Of a stretch of DNA of 38,173 bases, positions 5,445 to 22,193 are shown piece by piece (position 1 is the first letter of the stretch; each line of letters begins with the position of its first letter). The notes beneath the pieces are model-generated. The model did no database searches and was not told the DNA's origin. It worked only from the letters and a program-made list of their open reading frames with translations. This stretch comes from a virus. The DNA lies in IMG/VR virus record IMGVR_UViG_3300048839_000203, positions 1-38,173 of that record. One strand, 5' to 3'. Made by a program: the position numbers and the translations under genes.

Positions 5445-5718
<274 letters not shown>

Positions 5719-5748: not shown

Positions 5749-5778
5749 AAACCTATCTTTTGATAGGAGACGTACAAA

Positions 5779-5964: not shown

Positions 5965-5969
5965 CATGA

Positions 5970-8216: not shown

Positions 8217-8258
8217 AGATCCTAGGGAAAGATTCTGAAAAAATATGTAAAAATATAG

Positions 8259-8287
8259 TTGACATACGCTATTATACGTTATACAAT
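8259..8287 (+). promoter_or_regulatory. Promoter upstream of the recombination genes
   Basis: TTGACA at 8259-8264, 17 bases, TACAAT at 8282-8287, preceded by an A/T-rich stretch (8236-8258) that could act as an UP element. It starts the operon 8319-10234. Confidence 0.8.
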
Positions 8288-8318
8288 CAAGACAGATTTT
8301 AGAGAGAGGGAGGCAAAC

Positions 8319-8931: not shown

Positions 8932-9698
8932 GCATCTCCCTTCAATCCCTTTCCAGCCCGTCAAACACCCGCCCCCTGATCTTCACCATCGTTTCTGATG
9001 GTGGAATGGGTAAAACAACCCTTGCATCCCTATTCCCCCGCCCGGTGTTCATACGGACAGAAGACGGCACGCAAAGTATATCCGACAGGCAGGACATAGC
9101 CCTTTTCCCGGTGGCTGGAACAATCCAAGAGGTACTTGAGGCCGTCCAGACGCTACGGAATGAAAAGCATCGTTTCCTAACACTGGTCATCGACTCGGTG
9201 ACAAAGTTCAACGTTATGGTCGAGGCTGATGTTTTGGCCAGTGATCCACGGGCAAAGGGGCTGAACCAGGCGCACGGTGGCTATGGCAATGCCTACGATA
9301 TGGTTTCCAAAATCCACAGGGATTTAAGGGAACTGGCCGGGGCATTGTCTGCCGAGAAAGGTATGCATATAGTCTTCATTGCCCATGCTGCAACCGAGAC
9401 GGTAGACCTGCCAGACTCAGATCCGTTCATGCGGTATTCAATCCCGATGCACAGGAAGTCAATTCCTCACTACACCAATGACGTCGACGTAGTGGCGTAC
9501 ATCAAGCAGAAGACCTACACAACCGGGGACGGCGACAAGAAAAAGGCCGTCACTGATGGGTCAAGGATCATAACGTGCTACCCGACCCCGAGCCACGTAT
9601 CCAAGAATCGACTCGGAATATCGAGCGACCTGGTTTTTGAATTGGGCGTCAATCCATTTGACGCATGGCTTAAAACAAACAAGGAGAACAAGGAATGA
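8928..9698 (+). CDS. Sak4-like RecA-fold ATPase (single-strand annealing helper)
   Basis: A 256-residue AAA_24-type ATPase. Walker A is VSDGGMGKTTLA near residue 25-35, Walker B is TLVIDSVTKF near residue 90, and IVFIAHAATETVD supplies the sensor. This size and motif order fit phage Sak4 proteins, RecA-core ATPases that promote single-strand annealing together with a cognate single-strand-binding protein. That partner, a DUF669 protein, follows immediately (ATGA overlap), which strengthens the call. Start ATG 8928 overlaps the previous stop. Confidence 0.88.
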   Translation: MSISLQSLSSPSNTRPLIFTIVSDGGMGKTTLASLFPRPVFIRTEDGTQSISDRQDIALFPVAGTIQEVLEAVQTLRNEKHRFLTLVIDSVTKFNVMVEADVLASDPRAKGLNQAHGGYGNAYDMVSKIHRDLRELAGALSAEKGMHIVFIAHAATETVDLPDSDPFMRYSIPMHRKSIPHYTNDVDVVAYIKQKTYTTGDGDKKKAVTDGSRIITCYPTPSHVSKNRLGISSDLVFELGVNPFDAWLKTNKENKE

Positions 9699-10234
9699 GT
9701 TTCAACTGGGCCAACTTCAACGCAGACGAGATCGATACAAGCGTAACCATACCGGCCAACTGGTATCCGATCATTTTCGTGAAATCGGAAACCAAACAGA
9801 CAAAGAGCGGCGGTGAAATGCTGGTTCTGGAAGCCGAAGTGCTGGAAGGACAGTACAAAAAACGCAAGGTATTTGAACAGCTCAACCTCAAGAATCCGAG
9901 TTCACAGGCCGAACAGATCGCGCACAAGACCCTTGCAAGCATCTGCAAATCAATCGGAATCATTCATCCACGCGGAAGCGAAGAGCTTCACATGAAGCCA
10001 ATGATGGCAAAGGTCACCATACAGCCAGAAACTGACGAATACCCGGCCCAGAACAAGATCAAGGCATACGCTCCGATATCCGACAAGGCCAAGCTGATCA
10101 AGGCAGAGCCAGCACCAGCCACGACAGCATCGTACACCGCCCGCGCGATTCCCGATCCAGAACCAGTGGAAACAGAGCCGGTAAAAGTTACCCTCGGCAC
10201 CCCGACGGACGTCAAGAAGCCCTGGGAGGCTTGA
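9695..10234 (+). CDS. DUF669-type single-stranded DNA-binding protein
   Basis: A 179-residue protein of the DUF669 family. The N-terminal 110 residues have the family pattern: [20 protein letters not shown], then [23 protein letters not shown] and a helical [13 protein letters not shown]. The tail is proline- and glutamate-rich and ends in PWEA, as many single-strand-binding proteins have a low-complexity acidic tail that recruits partners. It is coupled to the Sak4-like ATPase by ATGA and probably forms the phage recombination pair with it. Confidence 0.85.
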
Positions 10235-10248
10235 TAGTTTGATATTGT

Positions 10249-10264
10249 GGCCTCGAAAGAGGCC
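10249..10264 (+). promoter_or_regulatory. GNRA-type mRNA hairpin between genes
   Basis: GGCCTC, loop GAAA, GAGGCC, directly between the single-strand-binding gene and the pentapeptide gene, and not followed by a T run. It may protect the upstream mRNA or set translation of the next gene, whose AAGGAAAGG site follows. Confidence 0.6.
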
Positions 10265-10283
10265 GCAAGGAAAGGACTTAAAT

Positions 10284-10895
10284 ATGCAATATACCGTAGA
10301 AGAATTAAAAGCAATTTGCGTTAAGCACATTGATTGGATAAACAATAAAGAAGGTGGTAAAAGAGCTGACCTGTCCCGAGCTGACCTGTCCGGAGCCAAC
10401 CTGTACGGAGCTGACCTGTACGGAGCTGACCTGTCCGGAGCCAACCTGTACGGAGCCAACCTGTACGGAGCCAACCTGTCCCGAGCTGACCTGTACGGAG
10501 CTGACCTGTACGGAGCTGACCTGTCCGGAGCCAACCTGTACGGAGCCAAAAACGCAGAGCTTGCCATAGCCATGACGGTTATTACTCCCCAAGGCGATTT
10601 GATAGGCTGGAAAAAATGCCACTCTGCAAAAAGTTTTTGCATTGTTAAACTATTGATACCAGCTGATGCAAAAAGGTCAAATGCAAGCGGTCGCAAGTGC
10701 CGTGCAGAGTACGCCAAAGTCCTCGAGGTGATTGGTGCTGATAGAGGTTTGTCACACTACGACGATGGCAAGACAGAATACATAGCCGGAGCTGAAATCA
10801 GGCCAGACAAGTTTGATGAAAACCGGTGGGATGAATGTTCCAATGGCATCCACTTTTTCATCACCCGTGAAGAAGCCGAGGCGTACGATCTGTGA
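10284..10895 (+). CDS. Pentapeptide-repeat protein with C-terminal DUF5758-like domain
   Basis: A 203-residue protein. After a helical start ([15 protein letters not shown]) come 12 perfect pentapeptides of the A(D/N)L(S/Y)(G/R) type, residues about 28-87, which should fold as a right-handed beta helix. The rest, with [24 protein letters not shown] and [14 protein letters not shown], matches the DUF5758 domain that often follows pentapeptide repeats in phage proteins. The function is unknown; some pentapeptide proteins mimic DNA and bind gyrase, but this repeat block is shorter than those. ATG at 10284 follows AAGGAAAGG. Confidence 0.85.
10365..10544 (+). repeat. 15-bp coding tandem repeat, 12 units
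   Basis: Twelve 15-base units encode the pentapeptides. They are nearly identical at synonymous sites: every Leu is CTG, Ala is GCT before Asp and GCC before Asn, Gly is GGA. Such uniformity suggests recent expansion or ongoing homogenisation, so unit number may vary between phage isolates. Confidence 0.95.
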
Positions 10896-10900
10896 ATATT

Positions 10901-10928
10901 TACCCCGTAGACAAAAATCTACGGGGTA
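10901..10928 (+). terminator. Perfect 11-bp hairpin after the pentapeptide gene
   Basis: TACCCCGTAGA (10901-10911) pairs with TCTACGGGGTA (10918-10928) around CAAAAA. It starts 6 bases after the stop codon. There is no T run behind it, so it may be a weak terminator or a 3' end protecting hairpin. Confidence 0.65.
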
Positions 10929-10976
10929 TACAACCAAAGTTATATATCGTGCTTAATGGGTTGGCATGGAGGATGT

Positions 10977-11525
10977 ATGAATAATTTGAACCCGGCTGAA
11001 AACAAGTTCCATCTTGGTAATGGATCAGATAAAAAACATTACTGGCTTACTCCGCCTGAAATAATGGAGCCTTTACAGGCTGAGTTTAATTTTGACTTTG
11101 ATCCTTGCCCGTATCCAAAGCCAGATAATTTTGATGGTCTTACATGTGAATGGGGGAAATCAAACTATGTTAATCCTCCATTTGGATCAATACTTCATAA
11201 TGGCAAAAAGAAAGGCCCAACTGCATGGGCAAGGAAAGCCATTGAGGAAAGCCGAAAAGGTAAGGATGTTGTTTTTGTCTATCCAATAGATAAATGGGTT
11301 TTAATGTTAATATCAGAAGGTGCAGAGGTAAGGAACCTTGGGGATATAAAATGGCTGGCTATCGAAGACAACACACAAGGCAAAGGTACTGGAAGGCATA
11401 TTGCACAGTTCATTTTACGTGGCAAAGAAGTAAAAAAGACTAGTATAAAAGATACGTATTGCCTGTTTGACTGGGCTGATCAATTTTCTAAAGAATCAAC
11501 ACTGATACCCTCAGAGATAGGTTGA
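10977..11525 (+). CDS. DNA N6-adenine methyltransferase, phage Dam type
   Basis: A 182-residue enzyme of the phage DNA_N-6-adenine-methyltransferase family. Diagnostic segments are YWLTPPEIMEPL, then FDFDPCPYPKP and the catalytic YVNPPFG (the N/D-PPY/F motif), with KDVVFVYPIDKW after it. It should methylate adenine in short sites, most likely protecting phage DNA from host restriction. ATG at 10977, with GGAGG just upstream, is preferred over ATG at 10956. This gene is visibly more AT-rich than its neighbours and follows a hairpin, which suggests it was acquired separately. Confidence 0.85.
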   Translation: MNNLNPAENKFHLGNGSDKKHYWLTPPEIMEPLQAEFNFDFDPCPYPKPDNFDGLTCEWGKSNYVNPPFGSILHNGKKKGPTAWARKAIEESRKGKDVVFVYPIDKWVLMLISEGAEVRNLGDIKWLAIEDNTQGKGTGRHIAQFILRGKEVKKTSIKDTYCLFDWADQFSKESTLIPSEIG

Positions 11526-11534
11526 GGGGTTGGC

Positions 11535-11768
11535 ATGGAATCAATAGACCACGACTTCCAACAAACCGAACCGCTAGGATCATGCGGCAAGAGATGCTAC
11601 ACCTACCGGCAGGCCAGGGAGATCATCAACTATGCGCCCAAGAAGGCCAGACACGGCCACTATAAAAGCATCCCCAAGCGGGAGTATTGGTGTCCGGTGT
11701 GCAAGGCGTACCATGTGACGCATTTCAAAAATGAGGATTATAATTCTTATGACAGGAGAAGTGAATAA
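11535..11768 (+). CDS. Small zinc-finger-like protein
   Basis: A 77-residue protein with CGKRCYTYRQAREIIN in the first half and YWCPVCKAYHVTH in the second. The two cysteine pairs and a His fit a treble-clef or zinc-ribbon type metal site, and WCPxCxxxHxTH is frequent in small phage and plasmid proteins. ATG at 11535 lies 9 bases after the methylase stop and the stop abuts the nuclease start. It may be a DNA-binding accessory for the nuclease, but function is unknown. Confidence 0.65.
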   Translation: MESIDHDFQQTEPLGSCGKRCYTYRQAREIINYAPKKARHGHYKSIPKREYWCPVCKAYHVTHFKNEDYNSYDRRSE

Positions 11769-12722
11769 ATGCCCCCCATCCCTCCACAATCGACCGATAC
11801 AGCCCACTTGGTAGATTTATACCATGAAAGTCTATCTACCCCGCCACGGCCCTATTTGGGGCCATCCAGCGCAGGTATCACGTGCGACCGGGCCTTGTGG
11901 TATTCTTTCCGGTGGGTATTGAAGCCACATACACCCGGGCGAATAGTGCGCCTATTCCGGCGTGGCACAATGGAGGAAGAGACAGCTCGCCAGGATCTGG
12001 AAGCCATCAGTTGCACCATGTTGTACACCGGAAAGAATCAAATCACTCTACCCCTAGCTCCGCACGTGATCGGACACCCGGACGGCTTCATTGACAATCT
12101 GCCTGTGGCTCCTAAAACGAGGCACGTATGGGAATGCAAGACGCACAACAAAAAATCCTTTGACTTGCTGGAAAAGGAGGGAGTGAAGAAATCCAAACCC
12201 AGCCATTGGATACAGATGAATCTTTACATGCACGGCACGCATATCAATAGGGCTTTATACTATGCGGTCTGTAAGGATGATGACAGGATCTACACCGAGC
12301 GGGTGGAGTACTCGAAAAAAGAGGCAGAGGAAGCCCTTGCCCGCTTGTCACATATCATTTTCTCCGACTATGCACCAGCCAGGATATCAGACAATCCGGC
12401 GTGGTATGAATGCAAGATGTGTGGATTCTTCGATGTTTGCCACAAACAGGCATTACCACAAAGGAACTGTAGGACATGCTTGCATAGTTCACCTGGCAAA
12501 ATTGACGGATGGTACTGCGCTCTTGACGATGGGCCACTGGACGTACAGGCACAACTGACTGCTTGCCGTGGTCATGTACCGCACCCTGACCTTGTGCCGT
12601 GGCCGTTGGTTGGTGAAGACTGCACCAGTACATCGGGGTACTTCCAGGGGGTAGGGATGGTTGGCATGGACGGGATAGATTCACGCGAAATACTCCTTGA
12701 CAACTCCACCATACCGATATAG
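11769..12722 (+). CDS. Cas4-like PD-(D/E)XK exonuclease with iron-sulphur cysteines
   Basis: A 317-residue nuclease of the PDDEXK_1 (Cas4/AddB) group. The catalytic core reads IGHPDGFID (Asp), then VWECKT (Glu and Lys) and SHWIQMNLYMHG (the QxxxY helix). One Cys lies before the core (TCDRALWYSF) and three or more after it (CKMCGFFDVC), the arrangement of a 4Fe-4S cluster in Cas4-like nucleases; a further CRTC, C and C follow. It probably resects DNA ends to feed the Sak4-like annealing pair. The C-terminal 60 residues are of low information. Confidence 0.85.
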   Translation: MPPIPPQSTDTAHLVDLYHESLSTPPRPYLGPSSAGITCDRALWYSFRWVLKPHTPGRIVRLFRRGTMEEETARQDLEAISCTMLYTGKNQITLPLAPHVIGHPDGFIDNLPVAPKTRHVWECKTHNKKSFDLLEKEGVKKSKPSHWIQMNLYMHGTHINRALYYAVCKDDDRIYTERVEYSKKEAEEALARLSHIIFSDYAPARISDNPAWYECKMCGFFDVCHKQALPQRNCRTCLHSSPGKIDGWYCALDDGPLDVQAQLTACRGHVPHPDLVPWPLVGEDCTSTSGYFQGVGMVGMDGIDSREILLDNSTIPI

Positions 12723-12737
12723 AATCAATTCAACAAA

Positions 12738-12784
12738 CTGTCTATCCATGAATGGTCGCATGGATAGGCAGTCTCGACTGTCTA
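12738..12784 (+). ncRNA. Leader RNA with two mutually exclusive hairpins (candidate)
   Basis: Hairpin A pairs 12738-12750 with 12759-12771 (13 bp, one G-T) around an 8-base loop. Hairpin B pairs 12765-12772 with 12777-12784 (8 bp, one G-T) around CTCG. They share 12765-12771, so only one can form. A terminator-like stem follows at 12785-12820. This is the layout of an attenuator or riboswitch-like control element, but no known class is recognised. Confidence 0.5.
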
Positions 12785-12825
12785 AGCCCGCAGCCTGAAC
12801 GACCACAGGTGACGCGGGCTTTTTT
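12785..12825 (+). terminator. Rho-independent terminator before the helicase-methylase gene
   Basis: AGCCCGC (12785-12791) pairs with GCGGGCT (12814-12820), with an inner CCTG and CAGG pair, and is followed by a run of T (12820-12825). It lies just upstream of the 12839 start codon, so read-through must occur for the downstream helicases to be made. Confidence 0.8.
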
Positions 12826-12838
12826 ATTTGGGGTGAAT

Positions 12839-15121
12839 ATGGAATACAGGGACTTTGTAAAAGGCAAAAAAGAATTGAAACGGTATGAAGGAATATCAGT
12901 AAAAATTGACAACACTGGACTGTTCCCGTTTCAAGTCCATATTACAGAGTGGGCACTTGCAAAAGGCCGGGCCGCTATTTTTGCCGATACTGGACTTGGC
13001 AAAACTCGCATGCAACTTGCATGGGCAGATGAAATCGTCAAAGCTACCGGAGGCGATGTTTTGATCTTTGCCCCTTTGTGCGTTTCACACCAGACGATCA
13101 AAGAAGGACAGAGAATCGGGATATCAGTCAACTATTGCCGGTCACAAGCCAAGATTGTCCCCGGCGTCAATATCACGAACTATGAAATGCTTGAACATTT
13201 CGAAGTCGATCATTTTCAGGGAGTTGTACTTGATGAAAGCTCCATCCTGAAAAGCTACATGGGAAAAACAAAACAGGCATTGATTGCCGCTTGTGAGACA
13301 GTACCGTATAGACTGGCTTGTACGGCCACCCCATCCCCGAATGACTACCTTGAACTTGGCAACCATTGCCAGTGGTTAGGTATAATGCCAAGTAATGAAA
13401 TGATAATGCGATTTTTTGCCAATGATACGATGCAGGCCGGTGGATACTCGCTCAAACCCCATGCAAAAAAGGCTTTTTGGGAATGGGTCGCATCATGGGC
13501 AGTGGCAATCTCCAATCCGGAGCAGTTGGGATACGACGGGTCAATGTACAATCTGCCTGAATTGATTCAACAATTCCATGTCATTGACGTTTCTGATCTG
13601 CCAGCAGTTGAGGGGGAACTTTTCCGCATAGTTGAAATGAACGCCACTAGCGTACACCGTGAAGGGCGCATTACTTGTGAGAGACGCGCGGCAGAGTTGG
13701 CAAAGATCGTCAATGGATCTGCTGCCCAGTGGTTGATATGGTGCAATACCAACTATGAGGCCGACGCGCTCAAGGCAGTAATAAACGATTCAGTCGAGGT
13801 CAGGGGATCTGACTCACTGGAGAAAAAAGAAAACAACCTTGACTCGTTTACTGATGGCACAATAAAAGTACTGATTACAAAACCTTCCATTGCCGGGTTC
13901 GGCATGAACTGGCAACATTGCCATAACATGGCGTTTGTAGGCCTATCCTATTCGTACGAGGATTACTACCAGGCTATAAGGCGCTGTTGGAGGTTCGGCC
14001 AGTTGCTACCTGTGAACGTGCATATAATGGCTAGTGAGTCAGAGACTTCAATACTCGAAACGATCAAGCGCAAGGAAACGGAGCATAATATCATGAAGGA
14101 AGAAATGGCAAAGGTTGTATCGGACGTTCACACCAAAGAATCAAAAATGCTTGAAACTCCATATTTCGGCGTCGAACGCGGCGAAGATTGGGAGATGCAC
14201 CACGGGGACTGTGTGCATGTTGCCAAGATGATTCCGGATTGTTCGATAGATTTTTCCATCTACTCCCCGCCGTTTTCCAATCTGTATATATATTCGGATT
14301 CAGAGTTTGACATGGGCAATTCATTCGATGATGGCGAGTTCATGAAGCACTACGGCTACCTTGTCGAGGAATTGTACAGGATTACCAGGGACGGACGATT
14401 GACGGCGATACACTGCAAGGATCTGCCCTTGTATAAGAGCCGCGATGGTTCGGCAGGATTGCGCGACTTTCCCGGGGAGATAATCAAACTATATGAATCG
14501 TTCGGCTTTACCTATCATAGCCGCGTCACGATATGGAAAGATCCAGTCATTGAGATGCAAAGAACTAAAAACCACGGGTTGCTTTACAAGCAGCTCTGTA
14601 AGGACTCTGCGGCTTCCCGTCAAGGTATGGCCGATTACATGATAGTCATGAGGAAATGGGGAGATGAAACGAAATGGGAACCAGTAACCAGGGGCGGCGA
14701 ACGGTTTCATGATTATATCGGATCAACCAAAGAGCGTGAGGCAGCGATGGTACTTAGCCGGGATGGTGAGGAATTGGAGCGACTTTCATCAATCAATGTC
14801 TGGCAGAGGTATGCTAGCCCGGTATGGTTCGATATAAACCAGACCAACGTACTGAACAAGAAATATGCAAAGGACATTGAAGAAGAGCGCCACATCTGCC
14901 CATTGCAGCTTGACGTAATCGAAAGATCAATAGAGCTATGGTCAAATCCGCGTGACCTGGTTTTTTCACCTTTTGCGGGGATTGGATCTGAGGGCTACGT
15001 TGCGGTCAAAATGGATCGGCGATTTATTGGGGCCGAACTGAAGGAAGGATATTTCAGGGAGGCTTGTAAAAACATGGCCGAGGCTGAAATGGTAAGGTCG
15101 CAACCGTCACTGGATTTTTGA
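12839..15121 (+). CDS. SF2 helicase / DNA methyltransferase fusion
   Basis: A 760-residue fusion. Residues 1 to about 450 are an SNF2-like superfamily 2 helicase: FADTGLGKTRMQLAWA (Walker A), VVLDESS (motif II), CTATPSPNDYLELGNH (motif III), and QAIRRCWRFGQ (motif VI). Residues about 450-760 are a beta-class amino-methyltransferase: MHHGDCVHVAKMIPD, catalytic IYSPPFS (motif IV), and later VFSPFAGIGSEGYVAVK with FIGAELK (motif I). Helicase-methylase fusions occur in phages and resemble restriction-type enzymes; it may modify phage DNA while translocating. ATG at 12839 is preceded by GGGGTG; the longer frame would start inside the leader hairpins. Confidence 0.9.
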   Translation: MEYRDFVKGKKELKRYEGISVKIDNTGLFPFQVHITEWALAKGRAAIFADTGLGKTRMQLAWADEIVKATGGDVLIFAPLCVSHQTIKEGQRIGISVNYCRSQAKIVPGVNITNYEMLEHFEVDHFQGVVLDESSILKSYMGKTKQALIAACETVPYRLACTATPSPNDYLELGNHCQWLGIMPSNEMIMRFFANDTMQAGGYSLKPHAKKAFWEWVASWAVAISNPEQLGYDGSMYNLPELIQQFHVIDVSDLPAVEGELFRIVEMNATSVHREGRITCERRAAELAKIVNGSAAQWLIWCNTNYEADALKAVINDSVEVRGSDSLEKKENNLDSFTDGTIKVLITKPSIAGFGMNWQHCHNMAFVGLSYSYEDYYQAIRRCWRFGQLLPVNVHIMASESETSILETIKRKETEHNIMKEEMAKVVSDVHTKESKMLETPYFGVERGEDWEMHHGDCVHVAKMIPDCSIDFSIYSPPFSNLYIYSDSEFDMGNSFDDGEFMKHYGYLVEELYRITRDGRLTAIHCKDLPLYKSRDGSAGLRDFPGEIIKLYESFGFTYHSRVTIWKDPVIEMQRTKNHGLLYKQLCKDSAASRQGMADYMIVMRKWGDETKWEPVTRGGERFHDYIGSTKEREAAMVLSRDGEELERLSSINVWQRYASPVWFDINQTNVLNKKYAKDIEEERHICPLQLDVIERSIELWSNPRDLVFSPFAGIGSEGYVAVKMDRRFIGAELKEGYFREACKNMAEAEMVRSQPSLDF

Positions 15122-15123
15122 TC

Positions 15124-16749
15124 ATGAAAACCCTCCGCCCCTACCAGCGCGAAGCCATAGACGCATTGTATCAGTATTGGAAAACCGAAAAAGGCCACGG
15201 GTTGCTAGTGCTGCCCACGGGGGCGGGGAAGTCGTTACTTTTATCAGCCCTAATCAAAGAAATATGCACCAACTGGCCTGGGACGAGGATTCTTGTCCTG
15301 GCGCATGTCCGTGAACTGCTGACCCAGAGCTATGAGGAACTATTATCTTACTGGCCCGAAGCCCCGGTGGGCCTGTACTCCGCTGGCCTATCCCGGAGGG
15401 ACTTTCAAGCCCAGGTATTGATTGCCGGGATACAATCAATAGCCAAGCACACACAGAACCTGTTCCCGCCCCCGGAGATTGTGATAGTTGACGAGTGTCA
15501 TTTGATTGCACGGACTGAGACGACTAGGTACAACGCAACAATCAAACTACTTGAACAGATGTATCCTCACCTCCGGGTAGTTGGATTGTCGGCCACGCCT
15601 TACAGGTTAGATTCGGGGTATCTGCATAAAGGCGATGGTAAAATCTTCGACCGTATCGTCTATGATGTCCCGGTACAGCGCCTTATTGACGAAGGATACC
15701 TTGCCCCGGTACGCACACCCAAGGTAGACCGCATTATTGATGTATCCGGGGTCCATCACTCCGGCGGTGAGTTCGTGGCTGGTGAGCTTGAAGAAAAGGC
15801 CATGGCCGGGGACACCACGGCACGGGCGATAAAGGATCTTTTGGTCCGGGGGCAGGACAGGAAGAAATGGTTGGTATTCTGTTGCGGACTGAAACACGCT
15901 GCCGAGGTGTCGGATTCATTATCTAACCACGGGATACGTAATGAAATAATCGCAGGCGATACGCCCAAGGCAACACGAGACAGGATCATCCAAGAGTACA
16001 AAGACGGATCATTGGATCCAATCCGGGCGCTTGTTTCGGTCGGGGTGCTGACTACCGGATTCAATGTGCCGCAGGTGGATTTAATAGTCATGTTGCGGCC
16101 GACTGAATCAGTAGGTCTGTATGTGCAAATTACGGGCAGGGGAATGCGAGTTGCACCAGGGAAAACCGACTGTCTAGTCCTGGACTACGCCGGAAATATC
16201 CTGCGCCACGGACCGATTGATGCAGTGAACCCTGACAACAAGCCCTGGAATGACGGCGACGGCGTAGCCCCGGCCAAGGAATGTCCAGCGTGTCACATGA
16301 TGGTACATGCGGCAGTTAGGGTATGCCCGGTCTGCGGCCATGAGTTCCCGGAAAGTGAATACAAGATACAGCACAAAGCCAGCGACGCCCCGATACTCAA
16401 AGCCCAGGTTGAACCGGACGAACTGGAAGTATGGTCAACAGAATGGGTGCTACATAGGAAAGAAGGCAAAAAGGATTCGATCAGGGTAAACTTTAGTACT
16501 AATTTGATGACAATTTCAGAATGGATCTTTCCAGAGTCCAGCACACAATGGGGCGATTTTTTCTATCGGAAAACATGCAAGGAATTAGGGCTTGCTGCCC
16601 CGTATCCGGCCACGGCGATGGACTTCCTTGACCGTGTTTTGCCTGAGGCTGAAAAGATATGGGTGGTCAAAGAGGGCAAATGGGACAGGGTGAAAAGGCA
16701 TATTTGGAAGGTGAAAGTGGAGGAATACGAGGATATAATTCCCTTCTGA
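15124..16749 (+). CDS. DEAD/DEAH superfamily 2 helicase with zinc finger
   Basis: A 541-residue helicase. Motifs in order: RPYQREAIDAL (Q-like), LPTGAGKSLL (Walker A), IVDECHLIA (DECH, motif II), LSATPYRLD (motif III), GVLTTGFNVPQVD (motif V) and QITGRGMRVAPGK (motif VI). A four-Cys zinc finger, CPACHMMVHAAVRVCPVC, follows, and the last 130 residues form a domain with SEWIFPES seen in other phage helicases. ATG at 15124 was chosen; the TTG at 15118 in the same frame overlaps the previous gene. Two different SF2 helicases side by side is unusual for a phage this small. Confidence 0.9.
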   Translation: MKTLRPYQREAIDALYQYWKTEKGHGLLVLPTGAGKSLLLSALIKEICTNWPGTRILVLAHVRELLTQSYEELLSYWPEAPVGLYSAGLSRRDFQAQVLIAGIQSIAKHTQNLFPPPEIVIVDECHLIARTETTRYNATIKLLEQMYPHLRVVGLSATPYRLDSGYLHKGDGKIFDRIVYDVPVQRLIDEGYLAPVRTPKVDRIIDVSGVHHSGGEFVAGELEEKAMAGDTTARAIKDLLVRGQDRKKWLVFCCGLKHAAEVSDSLSNHGIRNEIIAGDTPKATRDRIIQEYKDGSLDPIRALVSVGVLTTGFNVPQVDLIVMLRPTESVGLYVQITGRGMRVAPGKTDCLVLDYAGNILRHGPIDAVNPDNKPWNDGDGVAPAKECPACHMMVHAAVRVCPVCGHEFPESEYKIQHKASDAPILKAQVEPDELEVWSTEWVLHRKEGKKDSIRVNFSTNLMTISEWIFPESSTQWGDFFYRKTCKELGLAAPYPATAMDFLDRVLPEAEKIWVVKEGKWDRVKRHIWKVKVEEYEDIIPF

Positions 16750-16773
16750 TTTGTTCCGTTTTAATGGATTTTA

Positions 16774-16795
16774 AGTAGTTTCGGGCCAAACTACT
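16774..16795 (+). terminator. Hairpin of regulatory cassette 1
   Basis: AGTAGTTT (16774-16781) pairs with AAACTACT (16788-16795) around CGGGCC, 25 bases after the helicase stop. Its core GTAGTTT and AAACTAC recurs in cassette 2 (19369-19400). There is no T run, so it may be a bidirectional or protein-binding element and not a simple terminator. Confidence 0.55.
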
Positions 16796-16846
16796 ATACA
16801 TGATTCGTGTTTTTCTAAAATTATTTTAATATTTTTCAAAATATTA

Positions 16847-16896
16847 TTGACAGAAAAATCATTGTGCTTTATACTCTCATTATCAAGAGTTGATAA
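16847..16896 (+). promoter_or_regulatory. Regulatory cassette 1: promoter plus TTATCAA/TTGATAA operator
   Basis: TTGACA (16847-16852), 17 bases, TATACT (16870-16875), preceded by an A/T-rich UP-like stretch from 16812. The perfect palindrome TTATCAA-GAG-TTGATAA (16880-16896) covers the expected start site. The palindrome could be an operator or, in the RNA, a 5' hairpin next to the AAGGAG site. The same arrangement recurs at 19457-19506. Confidence 0.8.
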
Positions 16897-16906
16897 GGAG
16901 ATTGTG

Positions 16907-17125
16907 ATGTATCAAATTACCGGACGGACTTACGAAGCTAAGGACGACCTGAAAAAAGCCGGATACGTTTACAGCGCCGAAACCAAATCATGGATCGGTG
17001 AAAGCCGCGAGCCTTTTGATGCCATGATTGCCAAGTGGAAGCGCCCCGGATATGGTGTCAGGTTTGGCCAGCTTGCCAAGCAGTTGCACATCGCTGAGTT
17101 TGCAATCGTAACCTGTGAGATTTAA
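16907..17125 (+). CDS. Hypothetical protein, first gene of cassette 1
   Basis: A 72-residue protein (MYQITGRTYEAKDDLKKAG at its start) with YVYSAETKSWIG in the first half. That half recalls small domains in which a strand is followed by a tryptophan, as in proteins that predict KAGYxWxxxxKxW; this pattern is common in phage and plasmid proteins but of unknown role. ATG at 16907 follows AAGGAG, itself next to the palindrome. Controlled by cassette 1, it may be made early and tightly regulated. Confidence 0.65.
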   Translation: MYQITGRTYEAKDDLKKAGYVYSAETKSWIGESREPFDAMIAKWKRPGYGVRFGQLAKQLHIAEFAIVTCEI

Positions 17126-17134
17126 CCACAAGCC

Positions 17135-17150
17135 GGGGGCTTCGGCCCCC
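17135..17150 (+). promoter_or_regulatory. UUCG hairpin after the first cassette-1 gene
   Basis: GGGGGC, loop TTCG, GCCCCC, placed between the 16907 gene and the next start. A comparable G/C hairpin follows the first gene of cassette 2. It may protect the short first message or partly end it. Confidence 0.7.
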
Positions 17151-17163
17151 ACGAAAGGAAAGA

Positions 17164-17352
17164 ATGATGAATAGTTTTTTAGACAGTTTGGCAGATGGTG
17201 TTTTCAAATGGATGTTTTTTGTCTTGGGCGTTATCCCGTGGGGATGGTTTGCTTCAAACAACAAGGTTGCATGGCTCATTTTCCAGTTTGTATGCATTGC
17301 TACATTTTCAATACATGGCAAACTGGATGCAATGAAAAAGGAAATGAAATGA
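17164..17352 (+). CDS. Small two-span membrane protein
   Basis: A 62-residue protein with two hydrophobic segments, WMFFVLGVIPWGWFA and VAWLIFQFVCIATFSI, separated by a short SNNK turn, and a charged end (KLDAMKKEMK). The size and hairpin topology resemble class II holins, but the peptidase gene is on the other arm, so this may instead be a membrane-acting takeover or exclusion protein. ATG at 17164 has GAAAGGA upstream; ATG 17167 is the alternative. The stop overlaps the next start. Confidence 0.6.
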   Translation: MMNSFLDSLADGVFKWMFFVLGVIPWGWFASNNKVAWLIFQFVCIATFSIHGKLDAMKKEMK

Positions 17353-17441
17353 CCGCCACCAAATCCCGCACCGTGTATCTATCCTTCATCGCCTTCAATA
17401 TCGTTCTATCCATCGGAATCATTATCGGGAGGTTTCTATGA
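17349..17441 (+). CDS. 30-residue single-span membrane peptide
   Basis: A very short frame, MTATKSRTVYLS followed by the hydrophobic FIAFNIVLSIGIIIGRFL, that is coupled to the genes on both sides by ATGA-type overlaps. The tight coupling and the clear membrane segment argue that it is a real gene and not noise. Its function is unknown; it might pair in the membrane with the preceding two-span protein. Confidence 0.55.
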   Translation: MTATKSRTVYLSFIAFNIVLSIGIIIGRFL

Positions 17442-17719
17442 TTCTTTTCCAAGTCGGCCACAAGTTCTACCAGCACCAGGGCAAGGAGACTGCCCGCGCT
17501 GTCCTTCACGCTGCCAAGAGGCTTTCAAAAAATACAATAATCTGGGCAGAGGTGGAACCCGGTATTTTTGAAAAGCAGGGTATCCGGTACACCGAGGATT
17601 CGGAACGCATCCCCGGCAATACCTACGTGTACCTGCGGAAACGTTACCGTATGGATCTGGCCGGCAATGGCGAGAAAAAGGTGCTTGAGTTCAATGGCAA
17701 CCTGGGGGTGACGAAATGA
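17438..17719 (+). CDS. Hypothetical basic protein
   Basis: A 93-residue protein I do not recognise. It is mixed alpha/beta in look, with a helix (ETARAVLHAAKRLS) followed by strands (TIIWAEVEPGIF, NTYVYLRKRYRMD). The ATG at 17438 overlaps the previous stop and the stop overlaps the next start (ATGA). It belongs to the chain of small coupled genes behind cassette 1. No catalytic or metal motif is visible. Confidence 0.6.
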   Translation: MILFQVGHKFYQHQGKETARAVLHAAKRLSKNTIIWAEVEPGIFEKQGIRYTEDSERIPGNTYVYLRKRYRMDLAGNGEKKVLEFNGNLGVTK

Positions 17720-17913
17720 ACCACCCAGACATGGCAATATCTGGCCCGTGCGATATCTGCGGAAGTGTCGTTGATTATTGTGACGGGGACGAATGCGACT
17801 GCTGTGGGAAGTGGACCTGTTACGAATGCGGAACGCATCACGGGACTGACTGGCTCTGTCCTGAGTGTGCAGAAGCTCGGCAACTGGAAGATGAAGGGGA
17901 GTGCGATGAGTGA
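17716..17913 (+). CDS. Cysteine-rich zinc-finger-type protein
   Basis: A 65-residue acidic protein with ten cysteines in CxxC-type pairs: CDICGSVVDYC, CDCCGKWTCYECG and WLCPEC. This pattern fits two or more zinc sites, like a B-box or double zinc ribbon. Small acidic zinc proteins of this kind in phages often bind host proteins, but nothing here shows a target. It overlaps its neighbours by 4 and 8 bases. Confidence 0.65.
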   Translation: MNHPDMAISGPCDICGSVVDYCDGDECDCCGKWTCYECGTHHGTDWLCPECAEARQLEDEGECDE

Positions 17914-18373
17914 ACATACACCGGAGCGGACTGCTGACGACGTGTTGCGGTCTAACGAGGCCAACACCTATGTAATGTCATGTCATTTAAGCAGTCCAGA
18001 TTTATACAAGGCCATGCGCCAAGATTTGCGGATAGCTTGTGCCGAAATTGTCAAACTCAAAGCCGATGCCGACAGGCTGGCTGGGGCTTTGGCCACTGAG
18101 CCTCTTGGCTTTATGAGCCGGGCCGAGTTGCAGTTGAATATAATGGTCAACCTTGAGCGGTTGGTTAAACGATTATCTAAAAATAATAGCCTTCGTTACT
18201 GGTGGGATCATTCAAAAAACTGGGTCAAAGTACAGGCCGTATTGAATGGCAATACCCTGAAAGCTGGAAGCACTTCATCAGCCGCACAATGCAACTTTAT
18301 AGGTGCTGATCCCGATGGAGATACATTTATAGCCCGCACTGCACTGGCGGAACATGAAAGGGGAGAGGGATGA
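17906..18373 (+). CDS. Hypothetical protein with helical N-terminus
   Basis: A 155-residue protein. The first half is helical (LYKAMRQDLRIACAEIVKLKADADRLAGAL), the second half more strand-like with RYWWDHSKNWVKV. No family recognised. ATG at 17906 overlaps the previous stop (ATGAGTGA). The last residues, EHERGEG, and the following bases are repeated exactly at the end of the next gene, see the 26-bp direct repeat. Confidence 0.6.
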   Translation: MSEHTPERTADDVLRSNEANTYVMSCHLSSPDLYKAMRQDLRIACAEIVKLKADADRLAGALATEPLGFMSRAELQLNIMVNLERLVKRLSKNNSLRYWWDHSKNWVKVQAVLNGNTLKAGSTSSAAQCNFIGADPDGDTFIARTALAEHERGEG

Positions 18374-18374
18374 A
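18349..18374 (+). repeat. 26-bp direct repeat, copy 1 (copy 2 at 18489-18514)
   Basis: The 26 bases encode the end of one protein (EHERGEG), contain the GGGGAGAGGG ribosome-binding site and carry the ATGAA start of the next gene. The identical block ends the following gene 140 bases later, so a small gene plus its junction appears to have been inserted or duplicated as a unit. Confidence 0.9.
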
Positions 18375-18513
18375 TATACCAGAAGGTCATTGTGTATGTG
18401 CCGATTGTGGAAACGATGATCAGTACAGACTGGTGTTCGGAGTCTGCCTTGATTGTGGAGGTGAAGTTATCTGTCCAGAATATGACGAGGAACATGAAAG
18501 GGGAGAGGGATGA
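18370..18513 (+). CDS. Tiny four-cysteine zinc-ribbon protein
   Basis: A 47-residue frame with CVCADCG near the start and GVCLDCGGEVIC in the middle, a compact zinc-ribbon arrangement. It starts at the ATG inside the first 26-bp repeat with GGGGAGAGGG upstream and ends inside the second copy. The enclosing repeats suggest it was inserted between two previously coupled genes. Similar in style, but not in sequence, to the larger cysteine-rich protein at 17716. Confidence 0.6.
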   Translation: MNIPEGHCVCADCGNDDQYRLVFGVCLDCGGEVICPEYDEEHERGEG

Positions 18514-18514
18514 A
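18489..18514 (+). repeat. 26-bp direct repeat, copy 2
   Basis: Identical to 18349-18374; here it ends the tiny zinc-ribbon gene and starts the 18510 gene with the same ribosome-binding site and stop-start overlap. Confidence 0.9.
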
Positions 18515-18692
18515 AGTCTACATGATTCAAATAAAAAACTCGTACTCATCAAACGATTGCGTGGTTGCTAACTCTATGGCAGAAGCCGAAACGGCATTTC
18601 ACAAAGTGTATAAAGATTGCGAGATCAGGATAATAACTCAGCTTTACGATAGCGTGATCATTGCAACACACGAGGAGGCCAAGAATGGATAA
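18510..18692 (+). CDS. Hypothetical protein
   Basis: A 60-residue protein, MKVYMIQIKNSYSSNDC at its start, with a central helix (SMAEAETAFHKVYKDCE) and strands on both sides (RIITQLYDSVIIA). A strand-helix-strand unit of this size is seen in many small phage proteins. ATG at 18510 overlaps the previous stop as ATGA and the end overlaps the next start by 8 bases. Function unknown. Confidence 0.6.
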   Translation: MKVYMIQIKNSYSSNDCVVANSMAEAETAFHKVYKDCEIRIITQLYDSVIIATHEEAKNG

Positions 18693-19056
18693 TGCAAACA
18701 GCATACATCTAGTGCATAGAATACGCATGGCACCATTCAACCATTCGGTAATCATCTTTGACGAAGCCATAGCCACCGCCAGAGCCGAGGCGCTCAGGGA
18801 TGCGGCTGATAGGGCGATTGTGATTTGTGAATCATTCGGTATGCTCAAGGGCGATATCAATGATATGCGGAGAGCCATCCTTGCCGACAAGCAGGAGGAA
18901 CCTGTCGATTACCGCAATACCCTATTCGGGTATCCTGTCGTTGTCGATGCTTCGATCCCGCATGACCGACTAATCATCATGACACCGGCAGTGTTTGATG
19001 ATCTGAAAAAGCATCTTGAATCAACAATGCTCGACAATCAGGAGGGGGAGAAATGA
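18685..19056 (+). CDS. Hypothetical protein
   Basis: A 123-residue protein with a long helix (IATARAEALRDAADRAIVICES) typical of many small phage proteins that precede a variable C-terminal part. The second half is strand-rich (TLFGYPVVVDASIPHDRLIIM). ATG at 18685 has GAGGAGG upstream and overlaps the previous stop; the frame extends upstream only from a TTG. The stop overlaps the next start as ATGA. No function assigned. Confidence 0.65.
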   Translation: MDNANSIHLVHRIRMAPFNHSVIIFDEAIATARAEALRDAADRAIVICESFGMLKGDINDMRRAILADKQEEPVDYRNTLFGYPVVVDASIPHDRLIIMTPAVFDDLKKHLESTMLDNQEGEK

Positions 19057-19361
19057 CCGCAAAAGACACCGCATTTATAAAAGTATTACTAGCTTTTATT
19101 TACATTGCATTAGTATGTATTCTGTTCTATCGACCGAACGAACCCGCCACCCCGGAGATCCTCATAATCCGTGAAACAACAGAATCACACTATGGCGAGC
19201 AAGTTCTTATAGTTGACTACATGGTCGGAGGCATTGCCACGAACGCCATATTTTATCCCTACCAGATGGATGAATATCAGGCGGTCATGGGACACTTGAA
19301 GCGGTCAGGCCGATTGAGATATGCAACGCCGATGATGGAGCCGTTGCAAGTGGATTTTTGA
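19053..19361 (+). CDS. Membrane-anchored hypothetical protein
   Basis: A 102-residue protein with an N-terminal anchor (FIKVLLAFIYIALVCILFY) and a soluble part of about 75 residues that would face the periplasm. The soluble part has strands (EQVLIVDYMVGG) and a short helix; no family recognised. It is the last gene of the cassette-1 operon and ends 8 bases before the hairpin of cassette 2. It may act on the envelope, for example in superinfection exclusion, but this is inference. Confidence 0.6.
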   Translation: MTAKDTAFIKVLLAFIYIALVCILFYRPNEPATPEILIIRETTESHYGEQVLIVDYMVGGIATNAIFYPYQMDEYQAVMGHLKRSGRLRYATPMMEPLQVDF

Positions 19362-19368
19362 GCCTATT

Positions 19369-19400
19369 TGTGTAGTAGTTTAGCCCAAAACTACTACACA
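19369..19400 (+). terminator. Hairpin of regulatory cassette 2
   Basis: A perfect 13-bp stem, 19369-19381 with 19388-19400, around AGCCCA. The core GTAGTTT and AAACTAC is the same as in cassette 1. It follows the 19361 stop at once and could end transcription of the preceding operon, though a T run is missing. Confidence 0.65.
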
Positions 19401-19456
19401 GATGACAATTATTCCAATAATTCTTGCAAAATAATTGAAAAATATTCAAATAATTG

Positions 19457-19506
19457 TTGACAGGGTAGGGGAGGTGGTATATACTTACATTATCAAGAGT
19501 TGATAA
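19457..19506 (+). promoter_or_regulatory. Regulatory cassette 2: promoter plus TTATCAA/TTGATAA operator
   Basis: TTGACA (19457-19462), 17 bases, TATACT (19480-19485), A/T-rich stretch upstream, and the palindrome TTATCAA-GAG-TTGATAA (19490-19506) just after the -10. Hexamers, spacing, palindrome and the distance to it match cassette 1 almost base for base, while the spacer sequence differs. Both should answer to the same regulator. Confidence 0.8.
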
Positions 19507-19515
19507 GGGGAGTAT

Positions 19516-19731
19516 ATGGAAAACATCGAAATCATCAGGAAACTACAGGCAACACTTACTAAGATCGACAACAATATCCCAGTATTTTTCAATATCGTTC
19601 AGTACCAGAATCTTGGGCTTGTTTATCCTACCGACAAACACGGAAAAGATGCAGTCGGAAATGATGTGGTAATCGGGACCCGCTGGCACCTTACCGACAA
19701 AGCCAAGCAATATATCAAGGTTGCAGTCTAA
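19516..19731 (+). CDS. Hypothetical protein, first gene of cassette 2
   Basis: A 71-residue protein with a helical start (IEIIRKLQATLTKIDN), a strand-rich middle (IPVFFNIVQYQNLGLVY) and a TRWHLTDKAKQYI end that recalls small winged-helix-like proteins. No family recognised. ATG at 19516 follows GGGGAG placed directly after the operator palindrome. It takes the same place as the 16907 gene in cassette 1 but does not share clear sequence with it. Confidence 0.6.
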   Translation: MENIEIIRKLQATLTKIDNNIPVFFNIVQYQNLGLVYPTDKHGKDAVGNDVVIGTRWHLTDKAKQYIKVAV

Positions 19732-19771
19732 CCCAACCCGGGGCCACACGGTCCCCGCCAAGGAGGCCCCC

Positions 19772-20191
19772 ATGTACGAAATAATCCGCATCTGGAGCCT
19801 GGTAACCGCCCCCATCCATGAGCTCGGACACATGATATTCGGCTGGCTATCCTTCAACCCGGCCATGATTACATCGTGGAACGAAACGACCGCTATGCGC
19901 TACGGGTTCATGATCCAGATTGGCGGCTATCTTTTCGATGCAATATTCCCGGCATTGTTATCCTACAGGTTCAGGCGTCACCCTTGGGTACACGCCTTCA
20001 CTACGTTTCATGTCGTGACAATGTTTTATAGCATCCCTTACCAGGGAGACTTCAAAACAAACACCACTGGCCCCATGCTTATATGGGTGCTCGGCGGCAT
20101 TCTATCATTGGTAGTTATCCTGTATTCCTTGATTGCCGGACTGCAAGATAGATCAGAGACCAGAAAACAAGCCCGGCCAACAAGGGCTTAA
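19772..20191 (+). CDS. Integral membrane protein with HELGH motif (M50-like)
   Basis: A 139-residue membrane protein. HELGHMIFGWLSF at residues about 14-26 is a HExxH zinc motif inside a hydrophobic segment, as in M50/site-2 proteases and related intramembrane proteins. Further spans are around FMIQIGGYLFDAIFPALL and MLIWVLGGILSLVVILYSLIAG. An FDAIFP segment could supply the Asp ligand that M50 enzymes carry in NxxPxxxxDG, but the match is weak. ATG at 19772 follows AAGGAGG. A phage gene of this kind is unusual. Its stop codon is shared with the opposing left arm (TTAA). Confidence 0.65.
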   Translation: MYEIIRIWSLVTAPIHELGHMIFGWLSFNPAMITSWNETTAMRYGFMIQIGGYLFDAIFPALLSYRFRRHPWVHAFTTFHVVTMFYSIPYQGDFKTNTTGPMLIWVLGGILSLVVILYSLIAGLQDRSETRKQARPTRA

Positions 20192-20772
20192 TGCGTGAGC
20201 TCTCGCCACTTGGCATAGTATTCCTTGTAATCGGCAAGTGTTTTGAAGTGCCGCTGTTGCGGCTCAACCATGTTACCCGCCGCCCATGCGTTGTCATAGG
20301 CGTTCATGGGACCACCAGCCTTGACTATCATTTCTGTGGTCATCGTACCACCTGTGGCCGGTGTAGCCTCACGCGGTGCCAATGCGCTGCCAAGTATCCC
20401 CATTCCACCAGTGACAGTATTTGAAGCCGTGCCGGTTGTAGTGGGTTCGGGTTGATTGAACGCTGCCCAAATTGAATCACGCTCGCCGGGGTCTATGAGG
20501 CCGTACCCTGCTGCGGCATCAAACAAGGCATTGATATCACCTGCTCCATACTTGGCATAGGCGGCCTGCGGGCCCTCGCTCCTGAGCGTTGCGATGAACT
20601 CACTGGCTTGATTGAAGTCTTTTGAAAGCTGCTGCGTCTGCGGTCCGGGAAGCCGGGTATTGTCTCCCCATGATATTTTGGGAAGGTTCCATGCGGGCTT
20701 TTTCGGCTGGAAGTAGTCGGATATTGCCGTGATCCTCTCGCTTTGCGCTGACGGGTTGTTATAATCTGACAT
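20188..20772 (-). CDS. Hypothetical protein, last gene of the left arm
   Basis: A 194-residue protein with a Pro/Gln-rich start, a helical middle (FNQASEFIATLRSEG) and a Thr/Gly/Ala-rich low-complexity segment (residues about 110-150). The composition resembles virion proteins, and the MSDYNNP start recalls the MSDVNYN start of the gp20-like protein, but I see no real homology. ATG at 20772 has GGAGG upstream. The TAA stop overlaps the TAA of the converging right arm. Function unknown; a minor virion or lysis accessory protein is possible. Confidence 0.6.
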   Translation of the reverse strand: MSDYNNPSAQSERITAISDYFQPKKPAWNLPKISWGDNTRLPGPQTQQLSKDFNQASEFIATLRSEGPQAAYAKYGAGDINALFDAAAGYGLIDPGERDSIWAAFNQPEPTTTGTASNTVTGGMGILGSALAPREATPATGGTMTTEMIVKAGGPMNAYDNAWAAGNMVEPQQRHFKTLADYKEYYAKWRELTH

Positions 20773-21200
20773 TACATACCTCCTAGAATATCGCCAGGAT
20801 TATCAGCACTATCGACAAGGCTGTCGAGCCTGCTGCCCATAGTTTCAAGCGCAGTATTCGCCGCTCTAATAGTTTCAACATGCGCCCGGATTGCGCCAGC
20901 AAGTCCTCGTATCTGTGCAGTGACTGTGCCGAGTCTTCCAATGCCAGCGAGGCTTTCTTCAAGTCCTCTTGCACTGTCATCAATTGCACTCTGAGCGATT
21001 CCAATTCCCTCTCTGACAAGCTCGCCAGTTCGTCTAGCATCCTCGAGATCTCGTCCAAGCTGGTCAAGCTGTCCTCGATACTCGGCAATGGCGTAATCCT
21101 TGATTCTGCCCATCCTTGAGCTTCCAAGCCAGAATCCGCTGCCAAAGGCAATGCAAGCGCACAAAGCAACAATACCGACAATAGCCATAGTTTTCTGCAC
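20772..21200 (-). CDS. Overlapping second frame: spanin-like coiled-coil protein (uncertain)
   Basis: This 142-codon frame lies almost wholly over the 20783-21205 gene. It starts at GTG 21200 with a hydrophobic anchor (MAIVGIVALCACIAFGSGFWLG) and continues as a helical, coiled-coil-like periplasmic part, the plan of an inner-membrane spanin. Its stop overlaps the next start as TAATG, as real genes here do. Against it: it uses many AGA, CGA and GGA codons that neighbours use sparingly, and a shifted hydrophobic or coiled-coil sequence easily looks hydrophobic again. It is either an overprinted second spanin or a chance frame. Confidence 0.4.
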   Translation of the reverse strand: MQKTMAIVGIVALCACIAFGSGFWLGSSRMGRIKDYAIAEYRGQLDQLGRDLEDARRTGELVREGIGIAQSAIDDSARGLEESLAGIGRLGTVTAQIRGLAGAIRAHVETIRAANTALETMGSRLDSLVDSADNPGDILGGM

Positions 21201-21205
21201 ATCAT
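20783..21205 (-). CDS. Spanin/lysis-type protein: signal peptide, coiled coil, C-terminal span
   Basis: A 140-residue protein with a cleavable-looking signal peptide (KLWLLSVLLLCALALPLAA then D), about 90 residues of strong coiled coil (DEISRMLDELASLSERELES, VQEDLKKASLALEDSAQSL), and a C-terminal membrane span (LWAAGSTALSIVLIILAIF). The plan fits envelope-spanning lysis proteins. ATG at 21205 overlaps the stop of the holin-like gene as ATGA with AAAGG upstream, and codon use resembles the neighbours, so I take this as the main gene of the overlapping pair. Confidence 0.65.
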   Translation of the reverse strand: MMCRKLWLLSVLLLCALALPLAADSGLEAQGWAESRITPLPSIEDSLTSLDEISRMLDELASLSERELESLRVQLMTVQEDLKKASLALEDSAQSLHRYEDLLAQSGRMLKLLERRILRLKLWAAGSTALSIVLIILAIF

Positions 21206-21387
21206 TTCCCTTTCGTGTACGAATCGGCGGCTATGTACCCGCCTGCCACTCCCACCAGCAACGGGAACGCCGTCCCCATACCGCCGGGAATGTCTCCAGC
21301 TACCACGCCGTAGCCTATTATGACAGAGCATGCCACCATAGCCCATAGGCATACCCACCATCGCCGCGATTGCCATTTGTTGTACAT
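21202..21387 (-). CDS. Holin candidate (two membrane spans)
   Basis: A 61-residue protein with a basic start (MYNKWQSRRWW), two hydrophobic segments (VCLWAMVACSVIIGYGVVAG and TAFPLLVGVAGGYIAADS) and a charged end (YTKGK). Size, hairpin topology and position directly between the peptidoglycan peptidase and the spanin-like gene fit a class II holin, which would time lysis by opening the inner membrane. ATG at 21387 lies 3 bases after the peptidase stop. No dual-start motif is seen. Confidence 0.65.
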   Translation of the reverse strand: MYNKWQSRRWWVCLWAMVACSVIIGYGVVAGDIPGGMGTAFPLLVGVAGGYIAADSYTKGK

Positions 21388-21390
21388 CTT

Positions 21391-21855
21391 TTACACCTCG
21401 AAAGCTATGCAGATATGATACCCGTAGCCGTATGGGTCATTGGCTACCCGGATCACGCGCCCGGGCATTGAACGGTTCCAGTGGATGTCATAATGGTCTT
21501 TTGTAACCCGTCGGTCAACCGGCACCAGATCGAATCCATGATGAACCTTGCGGGTTTGAAGGTAGTAATCAAGCTCGGCATATGCGGTAGTGACAACAAG
21601 CGGAACTGAAAACATGTCATCGTCAAGAAAGTATAGAAGCTGTTTGACCGGCGCGGCGGCGGGCTTTTCGGCTTCGATATCGTGCAGGCTGTACATGCCT
21701 GCGTTTTCGCCCCGGGTCAGGTCAAGGTGCAAGTGCGCGGCGGTACTCTGGCCTGAGTTGCCCATGCGGCCTACCATTTGGCCTTCAGTGATTATGTCTC
21801 CAACTTTCCATCGTGGTAGGCTGTCAAGGTGGGCAAAGCGGGCTGTCAGGATCAT
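21391..21855 (-). CDS. M23 peptidoglycan endopeptidase, circularly permuted (endolysin candidate)
   Basis: All parts of one LytM/M23 zinc-peptidase domain are present in 154 residues, but in swapped order. Residues 4-47 are the usual second half: TARFAHLDSL, a VGDIITEGQMVG strand pair, GNSGQS and HLHLDL (H41, H43). Residues about 86-154 are the usual first half: VVTTAYAELDY, HHGFDL (H105, D109 of HxxxD), then PGRVIRVANDPYGYGYHICI. Joining the C-terminus FEV to the N-terminus MILTARFAHL restores the normal order. All zinc and catalytic residues remain. The start is ATG 21855 or GTG 21858, overlapping the previous stop. No signal peptide, so a holin would be needed. Confidence 0.8.
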   Translation of the reverse strand: MILTARFAHLDSLPRWKVGDIITEGQMVGRMGNSGQSTAAHLHLDLTRGENAGMYSLHDIEAEKPAAAPVKQLLYFLDDDMFSVPLVVTTAYAELDYYLQTRKVHHGFDLVPVDRRVTKDHYDIHWNRSMPGRVIRVANDPYGYGYHICIAFEV

Positions 21856-22193
21856 CACAAACGCCCTATCAGGAACTCATCATATTCATCGAATGCCGCC
21901 GTTATGAGCTCCCTGGCTGTAGTAACATTGCCGTTACATTTACCGTCCTGCAATGCCTCCAGTGTAGCCTTATGTGCTGCAAGCTGTGGCCGTTGTAGCT
22001 TGGCAATCGCTCCGATGGCAGACATGTGCTTTGTATCTGCCTGTGACAACAATTCAACGCTTATGGTCAGTTGGTTTATGTTTTTTGACATGGTTTTCAA
22101 ACTATCAATAATCTTGAACATGCCTCGGACGGCAGAACCGGCAAGCGCAATGATGACTGCTGTGATGAATACGGCCCATGGATCAGTCGGCAT
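21855..22193 (-). CDS. Small anchored helical protein before the peptidase
   Basis: A 112-residue protein with an N-terminal hydrophobic segment (WAVFITAVIIALAGSAV) followed by a long helical part (FKIIDSLKTMSKNINQLTIS and onward). The topology, one span and a coiled-coil tail, resembles small phage proteins often placed beside lysis genes, including some holin-like or antiholin-like proteins, but no family is recognised. ATG at 22193; its stop overlaps the start of the peptidase gene by one to four bases, so the two are coupled. Confidence 0.55.
   Translation of the reverse strand: MPTDPWAVFITAVIIALAGSAVRGMFKIIDSLKTMSKNINQLTISVELLSQADTKHMSAIGAIAKLQRPQLAAHKATLEALQDGKCNGNVTTARELITAAFDEYDEFLIGRL

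Follow-up and report, generated by a model that had tools for sequence, protein, structure and literature searches.

The lac operator O1 is a dyad that overlaps the transcription start (+1) and blocks initiation, and the Streptomyces phage phiC31 carries conserved inverted repeats at its early promoters, in many copies and with a known repressor. Phage mRNAs carry hairpins that act as translational operators as well as 5' stabilizing stem-loops beside the ribosome site. In the L5/Bxb1 group of cluster A mycobacteriophages, a short site is repeated across the genome, oriented with transcription and in some instances placed within promoters (PMC6550527), and the repressors of these stoperators are described as binding an asymmetric sequence as monomers (PMC9283540). 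Here we analyzed an IMG/VR phage record of 38,173 bases (the window; coded G000 in our phage set), in which two promoters are each followed by the palindrome TTATCAA-GAG-TTGATAA and a ribosome site. Judging from sequence and setting, we propose that TTATCAA-NNN-TTGATAA may be a DNA operator through which a putative dimeric repressor would control several small-gene operons, a reading to which we give a probability of roughly one half (0.52). Terminase genes run leftwards at the left of the window and structural genes run leftwards up to its end, while a rightward replication arm extends from ~5,744 to 20,191; the palindromes lie at the end of this arm, after two helicase-like genes.

The promoter-palindrome arrangement and its recurrence in phages

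At both places, on the + strand, TTGACA-17-TATACT is followed after 4 nucleotides (nt) by TTATCAAGAGTTGATAA and then directly by GG(A/G)G and a start codon. Promoter 1 spans 16847-16875 (TTGACA 16847-16852, TATACT 16870-16875), with palindrome 1 at 16880-16896, 4 nt 3' of the -10, and an adjoining GGAG Shine-Dalgarno (SD) sequence at 16897-16900. Promoter 2 spans 19457-19485 (TTGACA 19457-19462, TATACT 19480-19485), and its palindrome at 19490-19506, identical to the first over 17 bases, adjoins a GGGGAG SD sequence at 19507-19512. Two identical palindromes just after the -10 of such promoters were what the initial annotation had reported, and they are present. Both promoters match the consensus at 11 of 12 positions with 17-base spacers and rank as the top two in the 8 kb searched for promoters (14000-22000). 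The window holds no further palindrome site at up to 3 mismatches; in 100 shuffles of it the matches averaged 0.07 and never exceeded 1, and the two copies are not explained by chance. Comparison of the copies showed that only 6 of 17 spacer positions match, as do 21 of the 60 bases 3' of the palindromes, indicating that the palindrome was kept while its surroundings changed. The earlier claim that the palindrome is tied to the promoter and preserved amid diverged surroundings is thus borne out, and we rejected recent duplication of a whole block, which is unlikely given this divergence of spacers and downstream sequence.

A scan of viral contigs for the exact 17-mer, with no context required, returned 27 stretches. 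In three of them (L012, L017, L025) exactly 4 bases separate a -10 hexamer from the 17-mer, and GGAG adjoins its 3' end; the remaining stretches are without this context. A relaxed scan and a scan for arms plus GGAG contributed L033 and L072, whose overlapping parts are identical, as well as L051 and L131, two copies on one contig. The relaxed scan is not a full census, so that its members count as minima, and the set including the window comprises at least 8 promoters in at least 6 phages: two each in the window and G005, which thus carry the dyad at more than one promoter, and one in each of G001, G002, G003 and the identical contigs G004/G007. All eight promoters have a TTGACA-like -35, 17 bases, a -10, 4 bases ending in A, TTATCAA-RRR-TTGATAA, GG(A/G)G and a start codon, the centre of the palindrome being GAG in five, GGA in two and AGA in one. 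The records with this layout range in G+C from 30.5% to 54.8%, and G000, G001, G002, G003 and G005 have just one protein in common, an SNF2-like helicase/methyltransferase whose identity to the window's copy is 19-47%. Wherever the inner core ATCAA-N3-TTGAT occurs in the seven contigs, it is part of the full 17-mer. Relatives, in which the initial annotation had proposed to look for the arrangement, do carry it: five other phages have the same layout at the same position. We left out L053/L172 (an Arthrobacter locus with the 21-mer formed by the 17-mer plus GGAG) and L148 because their -10 is out of register; L226, whose right arm matches at 5 of 7 bases, is also outside the set. A Phapecoctavirus match with 5-base arms and a 6-base centre, found at one of 22 promoter candidates in Schickermooser, was rejected as probable convergence.

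We examined how far the arrangement is particular to phages. A scan of 84,980 genomes of bacteria and archaea located the 21-mer at 35 sites in 34 stretches, and under a lenient test the full promoter layout was found at 1 of these 35 sites (L181, with a weak -35), compared with 7 of 9 viral-contig sites, one site among the seven being counted twice as it lies on identical contigs. Among 1,193 genomes of three phyla, a -10-like hexamer with the palindrome was present in three (one of them G009) and in a promoter-SD context in none, a scan that may miss the phylum of the window's host. We therefore rejected an element of host promoters, on the 1 of 35 cellular sites. A second scan of viral contigs, in which the -10, the left arm and GGAG were fixed and the right arm was free, returned 37 stretches representing 26 distinct leaders. 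In five of them all 7 bases of the right arm are present, and the other 21 average 2.19 matches of 7, against 2.13 for random sequence. The right arm is thus all or nothing, and therefore the palindrome does not represent two common leader modules joined by chance: the left arm alone is a common phage start region, and the palindrome forms a distinct class. Only 4 of 1,052 promoter-plus-SD candidates, taken from 2.4 Mb of DNA gathered for this motif and hence not a neutral sample, have a dyad with other arms (at least 6 bases) beside the SD, and the one in L103 (TTATCA with a 5-base centre) is in the sample because of this motif. None of the four recurs, and with alternative dyads so uncommon next to the SD we also rejected a general phage leader hairpin. 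The exact 17-mer has no match in the full text of 5.39 million open-access papers (subscription papers are outside this scope), so that the element appears undescribed there, and nothing on this promoter-palindrome element was found in the open literature. Together, the data indicate that the arrangement is real and conserved in a group of phages, ordinary in kind and new in sequence.

Two of these phages carry further dyads near their promoters. In G002 (L186), TTGACT-N4-AGTCAA lies over the -35 region of promoters or promoter-like sites at 6411, 6760, 8162, 13504 and 15156, with a variant at record position 21687 (in L187); among these sites only 6411 also has the TTATCAA palindrome. In G007 (L192), on the - strand at 260-200, a second promoter near the palindrome has the same left arm and another dyad, GATCGATC-ATA-GATCGATC.

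A proposed operator and its alternatives

From the usual distance between the -10 and +1, by which we predicted the start site, transcription is expected to begin at base 3 of the palindrome, an A, so that the outer TT would precede +1. Two 7-base half-sites, with centres 10 bases or one helical turn apart, would then lie over the start, from about -2 to +15, at what is predicted to be a strong promoter of the host-type sigma-70 class. A dimeric protein bound there may prevent the open complex from forming or the polymerase from leaving the promoter. The two small-gene operons of the window (assigned from strand and spacing) would then stay silent together for as long as the protein is present and active, as would the operons, single or paired, of the relatives. 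The very short leader would place the SD directly 3' of the right half-site. Protein binding, repression and co-regulation at the palindrome are what we infer from this layout. Should the palindrome prove to be an operator, small genes without known function in several phages would be marked as one co-regulated group, the 17-mer would be a ready DNA bait for their regulator, and annotators may treat these genes as having strong, switchable promoters of their own.

Several observations weigh against the operator. No repressor was found in the phages: regulator families of Pfam have no match among 99 small proteins of six phages (E ≤ 0.01; 25 families matched), RHH_1 is found in none of the six phage records even at E ≤ 10, at which 14 of 14 control genomes were positive, and HTH_3 matches at one place only, the small terminase gene of G003, identified by its homology to window 2961-3410. 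The only protein that five phages have in common is the helicase/methyltransferase. The position of the palindrome is rigid, 4 nt from the -10 and 0 nt from the SD in all eight promoters, and on the coding strand its centre consists only of purines, a feature not required of a symmetric dimer site. Variation of the arms is under-sampled because most scans demanded exact arms.

The rigid position and the purine centre fit better with the main rival, a role in RNA at the 5' end of the mRNA, which the initial annotation had not raised. There the palindrome would form a small stem-loop immediately 5' of the SD, which would either shield the mRNA from degradation or act as a translational operator to which an RNA-binding protein attaches. 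The eight promoters all have zero distance to GG(A/G)G, and if transcription of copy 2 started two bases earlier than predicted, the RNA could form 7 pairs (-3.1 kcal/mol). From the predicted start, however, at most five pairs are left, the copy 2 hairpin AUCAA-GAG-UUGAU reaching -0.8 kcal/mol, and for one member a different structure has the lowest energy. Compensatory changes of the arms were not seen in scans that were biased to exact arms. Since no other dyad recurs at this place among the 1,052 candidates, structure alone is not what recurs, and we regard this role as unlikely. An explanation that dispenses with any trans-acting factor holds that related phages inherited a start region that favors both a strong promoter (A-TTATCAA) and a strong ribosome site (TTGATAAGGAG). 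TAAGGAG is complementary to the tail of 16S rRNA, and A-TTATCAA after a -10 followed by GGAG is common in other phages, as seen in the 21 distinct leaders that lack the right arm. Such inheritance does not readily account for a right arm that is all or nothing, nor for sister promoters of G002 that have a strong SD and no palindrome. Moreover, 14 of 14 arm bases were kept while the spacers diverged, in phages whose shared helicase is as distant from that of the window as given above, and we consider the explanation improbable. A broader proposal, which we hold tentatively and find rather doubtful, is that the start-site palindrome and its ribosome site may form a new class of regulatory element of small tailed phages, with arms preserved letter for letter in phages of 30-55% G+C that share almost no genes. 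One conserved factor, either a host protein of wide occurrence or an orphan regulator of the phages, would read it on DNA and perhaps at the mRNA 5' end as well.

The candidate repressor, the hairpins and the genes of the two operons

The initial annotation had proposed that the repressor is phage-coded and that it is the 61-amino-acid product of 5779-5964 (+ strand), taken to be a ribbon-helix-helix protein. Neither proposal gained support. The searches of the six phages described above recovered neither a regulator family nor RHH_1, and the 5779 protein has no match in PHROGs and only an unrelated, sub-threshold match in Pfam. Its model, built from a single sequence, has a mean predicted local distance difference test score (pLDDT) of 63.8, which is low confidence, and, in favor of the proposal, shows two helices after an N-terminal extended stretch. 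By eye, and as an impression only, short proteins of similar build are encoded in G003 (by a gene of the palindrome operon), G005 and G001; four such candidates gave no significant Pfam match, and three of them no significant PHROG match. A search of solved structures returned nothing for the 5779 protein and only weak matches for two other proteins queried. The 5779 gene has, in addition, a promoter of its own with a different dyad: at 5749-5775, TTGACA-18-TATGAT is accompanied by CCTATC-TTTT-GATAGG, located at the predicted start and running into the SD. On these results, the idea of a phage-coded ribbon-helix-helix repressor, represented in the window by the 5779 product, is very improbable. 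Short proteins of this build are found near a VRR-NUC or DUF1064 nuclease-like gene in four phages, single members being recognized by eye (L184 of G001, 4143-4830; L189 of G003, 6283-6824; L191 of G005, 18162-19401; window 4862-5964). Elsewhere in this part of the window, a dyad GTTGAT-AATTA-ATCAAC lies on the - strand at 4469-4485, after a leftward promoter TTGACA-16-TATACT (at 4492), and a run of GA dinucleotides followed by a run of G lies at 5556-5594, between the leftward and rightward arms.

Upstream of each promoter is a hairpin, and the initial annotation had joined hairpin, promoter and operator into one cassette. All parts are indeed present twice. The core of copy 1, GTAGTTT-CGGGCC-AAACTAC, is at 16775-16794 (+ strand), just 3' of the stop codon of the preceding helicase gene, and that of copy 2, GTAGTTT-AGCCCA-AAACTAC, is at 19375-19394 (+ strand) within a full stem of ~19365 to 19404. 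Folding showed copy 2 to be very stable (-21.2 kcal/mol, z -8.8) and copy 1 modest (-6.9 kcal/mol, z -1.5). Between core and -35 there are 52 bases of 13.5% G+C in copy 1 and 62 bases of 21% G+C in copy 2; of the A/T-rich lengths given earlier, 52 is correct, and 57 is obtained only if the count for copy 2 starts where its longer stem ends. In a scan with flanking sequence, the core GTAGTTT-N6-AAACTAC was found twice in the window and in two viral contigs, G001 and L220, of which L220 looks unrelated. In G001 it lies upstream of a homologue, 76% identical, of the first gene of operon 1, at a promoter without the TTATCAA palindrome, while the palindrome of G001 is located elsewhere; hairpin and palindrome are therefore independent. 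The hairpin, found in one relative only and there apart from the palindrome, was rejected as part of a cassette, and the two do not form one unit. In the window both hairpins lie directly 3' of stop codons that end the preceding operons; perhaps they protect the upstream message or provide a further site for binding.

The first gene of operon 1 (16907-17125, 72 amino acids, + strand) is the one with this homologue in G001, and the first gene of operon 2 (19516-19731, 71 amino acids, + strand) has no relative in the collections searched. Back-translation and tblastn searches for relatives of the first genes gave nothing, and the first genes behind palindromes in other phages match neither the proteins of the two window operons nor each other. 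The 19516 protein gave a model with a mean pLDDT of 48. A G/C hairpin follows each first gene, as had been noted, at 17135-17150 with a UUCG loop and at 19740-19755 (both + strand), with unremarkable folding scores (z -1.2 and -0.6). Neither the upstream nor these intercistronic hairpins gave a + strand terminator call or have a T-run on the coding strand. The rest of operon 1 consists of small genes (17164-19361, + strand), two of which (17716-17913 and 18370-18513) encode CxxC zinc-finger-like motifs, and the second gene of operon 2 (19772-20191, + strand) encodes a hydrophobic, membrane-like protein in which a HELGH (HExxH metalloprotease-like) motif was recognized by eye and whose only Pfam match is sub-threshold and uninformative. 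Ten operon proteins have no significant match in Pfam or in PADLOC, which covers defence rather than anti-defence families, and seven have no PHROG function. The anti-defence or takeover roles suggested earlier are unsupported by these searches, and an anti-defence function is a guess, because the operon proteins lack informative family matches.

Comparison with known systems

The element resembles several described systems in part. Like the stoperators of cluster A, it is one short site repeated in a phage genome and oriented with transcription; unlike them, it is palindromic, is confined to predicted start sites, occurs once or twice per genome and is accompanied by no recognized repressor. 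With phiC31 it shares inverted-repeat operators, if such they are, that are common to several early operons; phiC31 differs in its many copies, against one or two per phage here, and in its known repressor, against none recognized here. The phage 5' mRNA hairpins occupy the same place beside the ribosome site, but the RNA hairpin expected here from the predicted start is weak. In its position over the predicted +1 the palindrome is like the dyad of lac O1, and it differs from lac O1 in sequence, spacing and regulator.

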